DNA of 64,000 bases from Gemmatimonadota bacterium (lineage in GTDB: Bacteria; Gemmatimonadota; Gemmatimonadetes; Gemmatimonadales; Gemmatimonadaceae), in the NCBI GenBank assembly GCA_027307165.1, contig DAHUXM010000018.1:1-64000 (forward strand), in the 5' to 3' direction. A program made the translations under genes and the position numbers. The notes under the pieces were generated by a model. It saw only the letters and a program-made list of their open reading frames with translations, was not told the DNA's origin and made no database searches. Positions 44,453 through 48,222 of this stretch are shown here, in pieces (the stretch's first letter is position 1; each line of letters starts with the position of its first letter).

Positions 44453-45301
44453 TTACCGTCCGGATTTACCTGGGCGTGCCAGGATATTCTCGAACAATGT
44501 AAGAGCCCGCGGATCGTTCGACTGTCCGAGCCAGAAGAGCGCCCTTTTCCGCACGGACGGATCGCGATTGGTCTGCGCAACGCGAATCAGTGCGGGAATT
44601 CCATCCCCGTGCGGTTGCTGGGATAGTGCGAAGACGGCGCTCTCGCGGACTGCGCGATCGACGGTGTCCTCGGCAACCAACTGAGACAGGTTTGCCGTAA
44701 CGGTGTCGCCAGCCATCTGGCCGAGCCAGAAGACGGCGTCACGTCTGGTCTCGCTCGGTACGCTTGCGTCACGAGCAAGCTGCATCAACGGCGGCCAGAT
44801 AACGACACTATCTCCGAGCGTGGCCGGAAAGATCGCTTTCCTCCCGACCAAGACAGATGACTGCCTGGCGAGTGCAACGAGGTAAGCCGCGGCTGCCTGC
44901 GGCGCGACATCGCCAAGGTCGGTGACCCCGTTCACGGCGCGCCAGCGACCGCCGACATATGACCTGAGGCCGGTCACCGCGTGATCGTGTACGTCGAGCA
45001 CGATGCGAACCGGGCCGCGGCCACAGTCCGCGTCCCATTCCACGTCTGCGGCAGCGCGTTCTCCAGAGGTATTGCGACTTCCGTAATTGCCTACATATAC
45101 GGAATTACCCGACCCGCATACATCGGGACGTGCGCGGAAAGTGAACCGCACCGTTCCATCCGGCGCCGCGTGAACGCGCTCTGCGATCGATTGCCCTGAC
45201 TGCGCACCGGCCACGATGGGTCCGGCCGCGAGGGACGCGGTCGCGACGACTGCGAGCGCGACGGTCGCTCTCATGCTGGCGGAAATCGAATTCCTTATCA
45301 C
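44453..45301 (-). CDS. Secreted HEAT-repeat protein (three F-x3-Q repeats)
   Basis: 282 residues with a signal peptide (ATVALAVVATASLAAGPIVAGAQ). Residues 40-150 form an uncharacterised domain (GTVRFTFRARPDVCGSGNSVYVGNYGSR, a single Cys pair). The C-terminal 120 residues are three HEAT-like helical repeats of about 32 residues, each starting R-x-x-A-(V/L)-F-(W/A)-L-(G/S)-Q. The last ends KRALFWLGQSNDPRALTLFENIL, nearly the same as the last repeat of the upstream protein. It overlaps that gene by 4 bases. It is probably a periplasmic scaffold. No enzyme motif is visible. Confidence 0.8.
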   Translation of the reverse strand: MIRNSISASMRATVALAVVATASLAAGPIVAGAQSGQSIAERVHAAPDGTVRFTFRARPDVCGSGNSVYVGNYGSRNTSGERAAADVEWDADCGRGPVRIVLDVHDHAVTGLRSYVGGRWRAVNGVTDLGDVAPQAAAAYLVALARQSSVLVGRKAIFPATLGDSVVIWPPLMQLARDASVPSETRRDAVFWLGQMAGDTVTANLSQLVAEDTVDRAVRESAVFALSQQPHGDGIPALIRVAQTNRDPSVRKRALFWLGQSNDPRALTLFENILARPGKSGR

Positions 45302-46695
45302 TTGTCGAGTACCTCGGTGATGGCCTTGAGTGCACGTGGATCGTGTGATTGACCGAGCCAGAAGATGGCTTTTTTCCGCGAATCGGCATCCTTGTCGGTG
45401 CGTGCGATGGAAATGAGCTTGTCGAGCGCGGCGGGGTCGCGGCTCTGAGAGAAAACGAAGATCATCTGCTGGCGAAGCTCGCCTGCTGGAAGCGCATCAT
45501 ACAGGCGCGTCAGCTGGGAAACCGACGCTCCCGCCTGCCCTGCGAGGAAGAGCGCACGCTTTCTGTTGTCGACGCTTTCATTACTGCGCTGCGCAAGCTG
45601 CAGGAGCCACTCGGCGCGATCGGGCGACGAGCCCTGCGAAATTGCGAAGAGAGTCTGGTTCCTGAGATCATCGTCCGAGAGCTTTGTATAGAGGTCGCGG
45701 AGAAACTGCGCATTCGGCACGCCGCCCTTTTGCTGCCCGAGCCAGAAGATCGCCTTGCCGCGTAGCGCGACTGGCTGGGAGGCATCGGATGCGTATGCCC
45801 GGAGAATGCTCGTCCCACGCTCGCCGGCCGACTGCCCAAGCGCGAAGAGCGCCTTGTCGCGAAGCTCCTGGTCGGAAGAGTTGTGAAGTATGTCCGAGAG
45901 CACACTCACGGCGCGATCACTGTGCACCTGGGACAACCAGAAGACAGCCTGACCGCGCACATCGGCATCGGGATCCGTCTGCGCTACGTGCAGCAACACG
46001 TCCACCGCTTGTGGCGACTGCTTCTGGGCCACGAGGAATACAGCCTTTCTGCGAAGCGAGGCGGAGCACTCATCGCGGCGCGCAAGTACCTTTTCCAGAA
46101 TCGGTTCGGCACGATCCGCGTCCATCTGAAGAAGTGCATTGATGGCAGCGACGCGCTCGTCGTCGTCTTCGTCGACGCACTTGGCCGACGCTGCACCACG
46201 CGCGGTGGAGCTGCTCGCACCAGTTTCGGACGCCTGCGCCGCTATGCTTGCGGCACACGTGGCGTCGCCCTGTTGTGCGAGCTCTCCGCATATGCGCGTA
46301 GCGAGCGTGGCGGCGTCGCTGCGTCGGCCAAAGTCAGGGAAGCGCTGTTGCAGGTTAGCCAGAATGTTGTGCGCCGTACGCATCGACGCGGCGCCGCCCG
46401 AGCGATAGTGAGCGAAGGCCTCGTAGTACATCGCGTCAGGAAGCAGGGACGACTTCGGATAGCGTACGCCGACTTCGTGGAACAGCTGCGCCGCACGATC
46501 ATAGTCACCTCTGGTGAGCGCGTCGCGAGCACTGCGATACAGCGAGTCAGCGGGATCGGCCGTCGCCGGACCGACGGCCGTGGATACAACGAGACCGCGC
46601 GTGAACGAATCATGCGTCGCAGCAGCTGCCGCGTACGCCTGTGGCGCCGGAATCGAGAGCGAAGCCACGATCGCGCCAAGTATGTAGAGCTTCAT
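45298..46695 (-). CDS. Secreted TPR/HEAT-repeat protein (eight F-x3-Q repeats)
   Basis: 465 residues. A signal peptide (MKLYILGAIVASLSIPAPQAYA) is followed by a TPR-like segment (SLYRSARDALTRGDYDRAAQLFHEVGVRYPKSSLLPDAMYYEAFAHYRSG) and, after a Ser-rich linker, eight HEAT-like repeats of 29-33 residues. Every repeat carries Phe then Gln four residues later (FLVAQ, FWLSQ, FALGQ, FWLGQ, FAISQ, FLAGQ, FVFSQ, FWLGQ). The regularity implies recent expansion or strong constraint. It is encoded just after the anti-σ-like gene, so expression is probably controlled by the ECF σ factor. Confidence 0.82.
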   Translation of the reverse strand: MKLYILGAIVASLSIPAPQAYAAAAATHDSFTRGLVVSTAVGPATADPADSLYRSARDALTRGDYDRAAQLFHEVGVRYPKSSLLPDAMYYEAFAHYRSGGAASMRTAHNILANLQQRFPDFGRRSDAATLATRICGELAQQGDATCAASIAAQASETGASSSTARGAASAKCVDEDDDERVAAINALLQMDADRAEPILEKVLARRDECSASLRRKAVFLVAQKQSPQAVDVLLHVAQTDPDADVRGQAVFWLSQVHSDRAVSVLSDILHNSSDQELRDKALFALGQSAGERGTSILRAYASDASQPVALRGKAIFWLGQQKGGVPNAQFLRDLYTKLSDDDLRNQTLFAISQGSSPDRAEWLLQLAQRSNESVDNRKRALFLAGQAGASVSQLTRLYDALPAGELRQQMIFVFSQSRDPAALDKLISIARTDKDADSRKKAIFWLGQSHDPRALKAITEVLDK

Positions 46696-46707
46696 GTCAA
46701 TTCTTCC

Positions 46708-47568
46708 TTATTGTAGGTGCGTTGCGACGCCTGCGGGTACTGCGGTACGAAGGCGTGTTATGACATCGGAATGGCGAACCGACCCGTCGATCATCTCTCG
46801 ATCGATCGGCGTGTTCGCCGGTGACAGTTGGGTCATCTGAACGAGCACCAGCTCGAGGTCCTCCAGGAGTCTCTGTCGCGCGGGATCGGCGGCGGCGGGC
46901 GAATCGAGCAGCAAACGCGTCTGCGACAGCAGAGCACGGGCCCACGACGCCATTTCGGCGTCACCACGCGCGTCGTGCGATTCCGTCTGGTACGACGTAA
47001 GCAGTGCCTCGACAGCTGTGAAATGGCGAACCGTCGCCAGTGCGTAGGCCTGCGAGCGCGCATTCCCGCTCGATCCTGGTGCACTGTTGGCGGCTGCATA
47101 CGTTCCGTGATTCGCAGCGACGCGAGGCGCGGTCGGCAATGGCTGCAGGTGCCGCGAGTCAGGCGCGGCGCCCGTGTCGCCGCTTGCCTCGCGCGACGAG
47201 GGCACCACGGCTACCGCTACCTGATGCGAATCCTGCGACACATTCCGCGGTGCACTCTGCGCGAGCGAATTCGCGTGCGGGCCGACGCGTGAGTGCACTT
47301 CCACACCGATTCCAATTCCGACGCCAAGCAGGAGACCAGCGGCCACGAGCACGCCCCATATGGGCCGCCTGCGGATCGATCGCCGGAGCTCGCCCTGCTC
47401 CCGAATCTCATGCCACATCTCTTCGCGCGGCACGATGTCGGGTGGCCGATGGTAGTCCGCGCCGAACCGGGCGAGCAGCGCGTCGAGTTCGGCGTCCTCG
47501 GCCTCATTCACCACTGACTCCGGTGAATCGCCCGGATCCTGCCCGTGGGCGTAATTGTCGTCGTTCAT
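46708..47568 (-). CDS. Single-pass anti-σ-like membrane protein
   Basis: 286 residues. An acidic cytoplasmic N-terminus (about 70 residues; AELDALLARFGADYHRPPDIVPREEMWHEIREQG) leads to one transmembrane helix (IWGVLVAAGLLLGVGIGIGVEV). A periplasmic part follows, with a low-complexity stretch and a helical domain (VEALLTSYQTESHDARGDAEMASWARALLSQTRLLL). The zinc motif HxxxCxxC of classic anti-σ proteins is absent, but size, topology and 4-base overlap with the σ gene fit an anti-σ factor. It probably holds the σ factor at the membrane until an envelope signal arrives. Confidence 0.75.
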   Translation of the reverse strand: MNDDNYAHGQDPGDSPESVVNEAEDAELDALLARFGADYHRPPDIVPREEMWHEIREQGELRRSIRRRPIWGVLVAAGLLLGVGIGIGVEVHSRVGPHANSLAQSAPRNVSQDSHQVAVAVVPSSREASGDTGAAPDSRHLQPLPTAPRVAANHGTYAAANSAPGSSGNARSQAYALATVRHFTAVEALLTSYQTESHDARGDAEMASWARALLSQTRLLLDSPAAADPARQRLLEDLELVLVQMTQLSPANTPIDREMIDGSVRHSDVITRLRTAVPAGVATHLQ

Positions 47569-48137
47569 TGCCTGTCCCTCGCGAAATGCTTGAGCGATTC
47601 GCGCAGTTTTGCGCGCGCCCGGAAGAGCTGTCCCTTGGATGTCGTTTCGGCGACGCCAAGAGTGCGTGCAATTTCCTGATGACTGAATCCTTCGATCTCG
47701 TACATCACGAACACGGTGCGATATCCATCTGGCAGCGCATCGATCGCCGCATGTAATTGCTCCCGGAGGTCGACGTCCGCGTGGTTATCGTTGGCTCCGA
47801 CATCCGCGGCAGCGTCGAGCGGAACGTGCCGCTTGTCCATGCGTGATCGTTTGCGCAGCGCGCCAAGTGCGATGGAAACCGCGATGCTGTGCAGCCACGT
47901 GCCGAGTGCTGATTCATGCCTGAACTCCCCGAGTCTTCCGAATGCGCGGATGAACGTTTCCTGCGTTATGTCGCGGGCGGCGTCATCATCGCCGGCCAGT
48001 CTGAAGGCCACTCGATACACACGATCCACATGCCGGTCGTAGAGATCGCGCTGTGCGGCTGGATCTCCTGAGCCGGCGCGGGTGACGAGCTCTCGCTCGG
48101 ACCGTGCGGACGTGATGTCGGTTACGGGTGCCGTCAT
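47565..48137 (-). CDS. ECF σ factor (RpoE-like)
   Basis: 190 residues. Region 2 is present (DLYDRHVDRVYRVAFRLAGDDDAARDITQETFIRAFGRL, with SALGTWLHSIAVSIAL in 2.3-2.4). Region 4 is also present (LPDGYRTVFVMYEIEGFSHQEIARTLGVAETTSKGQLFRARAKLR). No extra C-terminal domain. It directs RNA polymerase to promoters of an envelope-type regulon. It is first in the operon σ, anti-σ, TPR/HEAT, HEAT; AGAAGAG lies just upstream of the ATG. The 204 bases upstream contain a lone REP-like palindrome and no gene. Confidence 0.93.
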   Translation of the reverse strand: MTAPVTDITSARSERELVTRAGSGDPAAQRDLYDRHVDRVYRVAFRLAGDDDAARDITQETFIRAFGRLGEFRHESALGTWLHSIAVSIALGALRKRSRMDKRHVPLDAAADVGANDNHADVDLREQLHAAIDALPDGYRTVFVMYEIEGFSHQEIARTLGVAETTSKGQLFRARAKLRESLKHFARDRQ

Positions 48138-48222
48138 TGTCTCTTCTTGGACGGCGGAATGGCTCTGGAGGTTGTGCGGATCCTGATTTGGGGATCCGGA
48201 TTCGATTGCATTTCAGGTGAGA

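Follow-up and report, generated by a model that had tools for sequence, protein, structure and literature searches.

A conserved cassette of an ECF sigma factor, a putative membrane anti-sigma factor, and predicted exported HEAT-repeat proteins in Gemmatimonadota

Members of the Gemmatimonadota phylum are common in soil and sediment. They are rich in extracytoplasmic function (ECF) sigma factors, about 79% of which are described as associated with anti-sigma factors (PMC7406223). Here we analyze a 64,000-nucleotide (nt) stretch of DNA from a Gemmatimonadota bacterium (assembly GCA_027307165.1, contig DAHUXM010000018.1, positions 1 to 64,000), referred to as the window, which carries at 48137-44453 four minus-strand open reading frames (ORFs) encoding, in this order, an ECF sigma factor, a putative anti-sigma factor, and two HEAT-repeat proteins, the upstream HEAT protein 1 (H8) and the downstream HEAT protein 2 (H3) (Table 1). 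The sigma and anti-sigma genes together with the HEAT gene or genes are hereafter called the cassette, and our data establish it as a conserved, tightly organized unit whose sigma gene is preceded by a conserved promoter motif. An earlier note made from the sequence of the window had described an ECF sigma/anti-sigma operon with two secreted HEAT-repeat proteins, in which all four genes overlap or nearly touch. This description is borne out by 4-nt overlaps at the sigma/anti-sigma and H8/H3 junctions, a 12-nt gap between the anti-sigma and H8 genes, and Pfam matches of the sigma and HEAT proteins; to judge from their arrangement, the four genes form one operon. Both HEAT proteins carry signal peptides read from the sequence and would thus be exported, and the single-pass membrane protein presumably acts as the anti-sigma factor.

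Table 1. Features of the cassette locus in the window
Feature	Position	Strand	Basis
ECF sigma factor, 190 aa, sigma2 + sigma4	47565..48137	-	Pfam PF04542, PF08281; NCBIfam sigma70-ECF, all above cut-off
Putative anti-sigma factor, 286 aa, single transmembrane (TM) segment	46708..47568	-	Domain conservation; AlphaFold2 (AF2) model m155a30193853
H8, 465 aa: signal peptide (sequence-read), TPR/YbgF-like lead-in, 8 HEAT repeats with F-x3-Q	45298..46695	-	Pfam, NCBIfam, motif count
H3, 282 aa, GTG start: signal peptide (sequence-read), beta-rich N-terminal domain, HEAT repeats with 3 F-x3-Q	44453..45301	-	Pfam, AF2 model mf2f9e1f5c3e0
Putative promoter core CAACC-N16-CGTCC (AACC-N17-GTC)	48149..48174	-	In register with the cassette-wide promoter; weak match

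The window sigma factor contains the Sigma70_r2 (residues 32-99) and Sigma70_r4_2 (residues 125-178) domains and, with sigma2 and sigma4 only, joined by a short linker, has the make-up of an ECF (group IV sigma70) protein. In a phylogenetic tree, the cassette sigma factors fall in a clade of 148 tips (support 0.897), comprising 136 cassette sigmas, eight further cassette sigmas whose loci are incomplete or have wrong boundaries, and four others. The window's own genome also encodes a sister ECF operon (L005, contig C10) composed of a sigma factor, an anti-sigma factor, and an exported DUF4097-like protein (by eye). Its sigma factor groups inside the cassette clade, which it therefore shares with the cassette; it differs in the third gene, the start of which is of the DUF4097 type (by eye) and not HEAT.

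The putative anti-sigma factor consists of a cytoplasmic N-terminal domain with the family motif YNxPPxTPREEMW, a TM segment at about residues 68-92 (sequence-read), a linker, and a helical bundle at about residues 167-276; the cytoplasmic motif and the periplasmic domain are conserved among homologs, with the linker being variable. No Pfam match was found for the protein, and NCBIfam returned nothing convincing. The earlier note had claimed that the usual zinc motif is missing, and the window protein contains no cysteine at all, therefore no H-x3-C-x2-C motif, which places it outside the zinc-binding anti-sigma (ZAS) group. The AF2 model shows a helical bundle with a predicted local distance difference test (pLDDT) score mostly of 87-97 between residues 171 and 280, and it is otherwise uncertain (mean pLDDT 71.6, predicted template modeling score 0.49), with helices 22-37 and 48-63 preceding the TM segment at a pLDDT of about 60-81. 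Foldseek searches with the periplasmic domain gave no match at E 0.001 or better, and VIA-align returned only generic helical bundles for the same domain (best Z 10.5, root-mean-square deviation 2.8, 107 aligned residues), below the level meaningful for bundles.

H8 and H3 match Pfam HEAT_2 and HEAT_PBS above the cut-off (95.9 and 53.7 bits for H8, 44.8 and 39.2 bits for H3). The N-terminus of H8 forms a YbgF/YfiO/TPR-like lead-in, matching YfiO just above and TPR_6 just below the Pfam cut-off. Exactly eight F-x3-Q motifs are present in H8 (20,000 shuffles: mean 0.96, maximum 7) and exactly three in H3 (mean 0.27, maximum 3). The AF2 model of H3 (pLDDT 83.8) shows a beta-rich N-terminal part followed by HEAT repeats, with artificial alphaRep proteins as the best Foldseek hits in a list taken up by matches of the HEAT part; alphaRep proteins are also the closest solved sequences to H8. 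These results agree with the eight repeats plus TPR-like lead-in, and the three repeats plus separate N-terminal domain, that had been proposed for the upstream and downstream proteins, respectively. The description of F-x3-Q as invariant, and the emphasis placed on its regular ladder, hold for the window and not for the family: among 181 H8-type ORFs, exactly eight motifs occur in 98 and none in 24. The latter include the H8 protein of L047, the second cassette of the window's own genome (contig C3), which lies in the H8 tree in a separate branch with paralogs of other genera; the deep H8 members L106, L107, and L112 have zero to two motifs. Since the second cassette has none, F-x3-Q is not essential, and because this paralog and the deep members retain the cassette architecture without the full set of motifs, it follows that the motif is younger than the architecture or under weaker constraint.

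Two cysteines of H3, residues 62 and 93, are present in 121 and 131 of 142 aligned rows, respectively (gapped rows included). A disulfide between them is possible; in some soil copies, tyrosine replaces the first. Lipobox-like motifs, identified with a crude regular expression, are rare (3/181 H8 and 7/163 H3 proteins), hence both proteins are probably soluble and exported. No H8 relative was found on the plasmids searched.

Within the phylum, the anti-sigma factor was detected in 161/298 genomes, H8 in 167/296 (1e-8), and the H3 N-terminal domain in 125/296. When the genome lists were compared by eye, the anti-sigma factor and H8 occurred together in 160/296 genomes, H8 alone in seven (G108, G132, G169, G235, G261, G287, G291), and the anti-sigma factor alone in one (G146). 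The cassette is common in the phylum and not universal, as over 40% of the genomes lack it. To examine gene order, 80 regions (about one or two per genus, mostly chosen by the anti-sigma factor and a few by H8 position) were annotated using profiles built up from the proteins of the window; together with the window, 69/81 carried the full set in the order sigma, anti-sigma, TPR/HEAT, H3, eight lacked H3, and four ended at contig ends or N gaps. Because this set was chosen mostly by the anti-sigma factor, a fairer test of linkage is provided by 80 loci for which H8 was the sole criterion (the best 80 of 255 relatives, mostly Gemmatimonadota metagenome-assembled genomes, some shared with the first set), of which 71 were full, with the sigma factor in 74 and the anti-sigma factor in 76. 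The six loci without the sigma factor lie at contig ends or a run of N, as do three of the four without the anti-sigma factor, the fourth being L141 (described below).

The genes flanking the cassette are not conserved, the commonest flanking family being present in 19/80 loci, so the unit ends at these four genes. Same-genus orthologs of the anti-sigma factor and H8 are 84% and 92% identical, respectively; conservation at the domain level extends across more than 140 cassette copies, and two divergent paralogous cassettes of the window's genome, including L047, share the same gene order. A fusion at L260 (3593-6165), in which the anti-sigma cytoplasmic domain and TM segment run in frame into HEAT repeats, was considered as a Rosetta-stone case and rejected; it is read as decay because the bundle and TPR part are lost and H3 is split by a stop codon. 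L119 and L120, candidate cassettes without the HEAT or sigma gene, are interrupted by stretches of N and appear to come from a split assembly.

One H8-chosen locus, L192 (CP070763.1, genome G298), carries the name Candidatus Latescibacterota in its record. Among 80 genomes of this second phylum, including G298 and labeled from L192 alone, H8 matches were found in 21 and anti-sigma matches in 18. The sigma, anti-sigma, and TPR/HEAT genes lie together in 18/21 loci, seven of these 18 with H3; the remaining three comprise a contig end, a HEAT match that is weak and lacks TPR, and an N-gapped weak match. The 18 include two distant cassettes, L250 (1-2503) and L251 (4642-7763), with a zinc-type anti-sigma N-terminus (by eye), a weakly matching periplasmic bundle, a TPR/HEAT protein, and no cassette promoter; the cassette architecture is thus wider than the zinc-free form. 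A profile search with genomic context in other phyla, as the earlier note had proposed, therefore found consistent linkage in both phyla, and neither of the contrary outcomes it had named, a sigma/anti-sigma pair missing beside most HEAT genes or transcription in separate units, was seen, the genes being linked and arranged as a single predicted operon.

The new observation of this study is a near-identical ECF-type promoter before the cassette sigma gene. In 138 de-duplicated regions upstream of cassette sigma genes, a blind word-pair count ranked GCAAC-N16-GTGTC first (61/138 regions; no pair exceeded 6 regions when the sequences were shuffled). A fitted model with two boxes, CGCAACCCTTTC-N8-CCGTGTCA (the promoter may also be written CGCAACCCTTTC-N8-CCGTGTC), reached at least 12 bits in 134/138 regions, with the spacer fixed in 132, compared to 0.29% of block shuffles; the figure of 134/138 is optimistic, as the model was fitted on the same sequences. 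Scanning 1,887,945 bases of cassette regions (sets partly overlapping) at 20 bits yielded 149 sites, 141 of them preceding a sigma-like ORF; of the remaining eight, L061, L089, and L178 were taken as cassette promoters for which the wrong ORF had been picked, and five lie elsewhere. The four regions below 12 bits are L250, L251, the window, and its congener L206. The window copy retains the AACC-N17-GTC core only; this weak match is in register and ends 11 nt upstream of the sigma ATG. Comparison with a close relative adds no evidence here, as the two sequences are too similar throughout. A second match to the window-type promoter in the same genome lies inside a TonB-receptor-like ORF and was rejected as probably due to chance. 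According to PMC8103513, ECF promoters are characterized by AAC at -35, and autoregulation is the rule for most ECF operons. The cassette sigma factor would be expected to recognize the conserved motif and to autoregulate its operon.

The exact 14-base pattern occurs at 40 sites in the 296 genomes, compared to six for the backwards control, and 18 of the 40 are cassette promoters (by contig and position). Of the other 22, 14 have a readable locus. The pattern precedes DUF4097 genes in L262 (Pfam) and L263 (by eye), a DUF5916 + CBM9 gene in L273, beta-propeller genes in L286 (just under cut-off), L288 (Pfam), and L287 (by eye), and genes without family assignment in L285 and L291; in L189, L191, and L205, moreover, the cassette is followed by a DUF5916-like gene that has the motif (L205 by Pfam). 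These sites hint at a small regulon of exported proteins. The non-cassette sites may also include targets of related sigma factors, because two further exact sites precede other ECF sigma genes (L279, L281) whose products both fall in the cassette sigma clade. In the second phylum, nine exact sites were found in the 80 genomes, compared to one for the control, seven of them on the contig of an anti-sigma match. Two side observations concern the promoter: the exact pattern stands before PadR-type regulator genes in four genomes (L278, Pfam; L280, L283, and L284, by eye), and in L106 and L107, from one genus, the gene of a beta-propeller-like exported protein (by eye) with its own promoter copy lies directly upstream of the sigma gene.

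Among known systems, the cassette resembles the E. coli sigmaE operon (RpoE-RseA-RseB) in combining an ECF sigma factor, a membrane anti-sigma factor (putative in the cassette) with a periplasmic domain, and an in-operon protein that is periplasmic or, in the cassette, predicted to be so; the autoregulated promoter of the E. coli operon would also have a counterpart in the cassette (PMC8103513, for the E. coli features). It differs in that the partners are HEAT solenoids, two instead of one, and that no DegS or RseP gene lies in the cassette; the Pfam scan of H8 and H3 gave no MucB/RseB family match, the significant matches being of HEAT/TPR type. The cassette is assigned to the ECF sigma factors with a membrane anti-sigma factor and not to the RseB family. 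Class I anti-sigma domains (ASDI) are likewise co-encoded with an ECF sigma factor and have a helical domain in the cytoplasm, after which a TM segment usually follows, with the zinc motif being optional (PMC7406223). An ASDI has a three-helix bundle plus a fourth helix binding sigma4 and sigma2; for the cassette anti-sigma factor, only two helices are predicted before the TM segment, in a domain of about 65 residues. H8 and H3 share Pfam HEAT matches with HEAT_2, HEAT_PBS, and alphaRep solenoids, and artificial alphaRep binders are their nearest solved sequences and folds, whereas H8 and H3 are natural, presumably exported, bear F-x3-Q at most repeats, and carry a TPR or beta-rich N-terminal domain.

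We favor, with a probability of about 0.5, an autoregulated envelope-stress module whose HEAT proteins bind the periplasmic bundle of the anti-sigma factor and gate sigma release in an RseB-like manner. The ECF sigma factor would be held at the inner membrane by the single-pass, zinc-free anti-sigma factor, and the two exported solenoids from the same operon would bind its helical bundle and set sigma release, as RseB does on RseA. Free sigma factor would then transcribe its own operon from the GCAACC-N15-GTGTC promoter, giving positive feedback, and in some genomes also a few exported-protein genes; the signal would probably be a misassembled or altered exported component. Support comes from the linkage at the H8-chosen loci, genome co-occurrence, the second-phylum cassettes, the lack of conservation in the flanks, the conserved promoter, the rpoE-rseA-rseB-like topology, and the conserved periplasmic bundle. 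Several points weigh against this explanation. HEAT-anti-sigma binding and the sensor role are inferred, and H8 and H3 could equally be outputs. No site-1/site-2 protease gene lies in the operon. The second cassette of the genome has lost the F-x3-Q face, which would be the likeliest fixed binding surface, and the best model score of the window promoter is 3.0 bits, with only the AAC/GTC core matching. H3 is absent from 16/92 regions with the sigma, anti-sigma, and H8 genes and enough downstream sequence (8/77 in the first phylum, 8/15 in the second), and is therefore not essential. Finally, L141 (4486-7536) has the sigma factor, H8, and H3 and no anti-sigma factor, the sigma ORF running straight to H8; this absence may be real or an assembly effect.

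It is also quite possible that the HEAT proteins are the main output, chaperone-like scaffolds for binding or assembly in the periplasm whose amount the sigma factor would increase, with the anti-sigma bundle alone sensing something else. As members of the operon, the HEAT genes stand behind the conserved promoter, and free sigma would always raise their levels; the TPR/YbgF/BamD-like lead-in and alphaRep-like solenoids fit client binding, and other exact promoter sites precede exported proteins (DUF4097, DUF5916 + CBM9, beta-propeller), like an output regulon. However, an output scaffold might be expected to stand alone in some genomes, and in the searches run here strong HEAT matches almost never occurred apart from the anti-sigma factor; this rarity, together with the RseB precedent, leads us to favor the co-regulator role over a pure output. 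A plain ECF/anti-sigma pair with hitch-hiking HEAT genes, co-located through inherited gene order without functional coupling, is improbable: vertical inheritance may keep neighbors together, by reasoning alone, and two phyla were sampled, but the sigma/anti-sigma/H8 core persists among changing flanks, the gene order is the same in two divergent paralogous cassettes of one genome, and the second phylum keeps the arrangement. As for a defective or chance arrangement, with spurious ORFs or misassembly, the only support is a handful of copies elsewhere that are broken or N-gapped (L119, L120, L260), and this reading is excluded by the conservation of same-genus orthologs and of domains described above.

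The earlier note had proposed a plausible undescribed system under its own envelope sigma factor. Its own ECF sigma factor, the predicted single operon, the linkage in two phyla, and the conserved promoter sustain this proposal as regards a system; as regards novelty, no description of the cassette was found in the literature searched, with subscription papers, including the 2021 ECF classification, outside that search. Tentatively, the gated module may extend to a lineage-wide envelope-stress system of Gemmatimonadota that also reaches at least one more phylum; a natural alphaRep-like solenoid pair would read the state of exported proteins and fire the sigma factor through a zinc-free helical-bundle anti-sigma factor, with its own operon as the most conserved target and with cassettes with and without the F-x3-Q face serving as separate channels for different ligands.

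Taken together, the cassette looks like a real but uncharacterized cell-envelope sensing system of many soil and sediment bacteria from two phyla, and the conserved operon and promoter offer a ready handle on its regulon. If the HEAT pair is the sensor, the few periplasmic partners that gate anti-sigma factors would be joined by repeat solenoids, and because these resemble engineered alphaRep binders, mapping their ligands would be practical.

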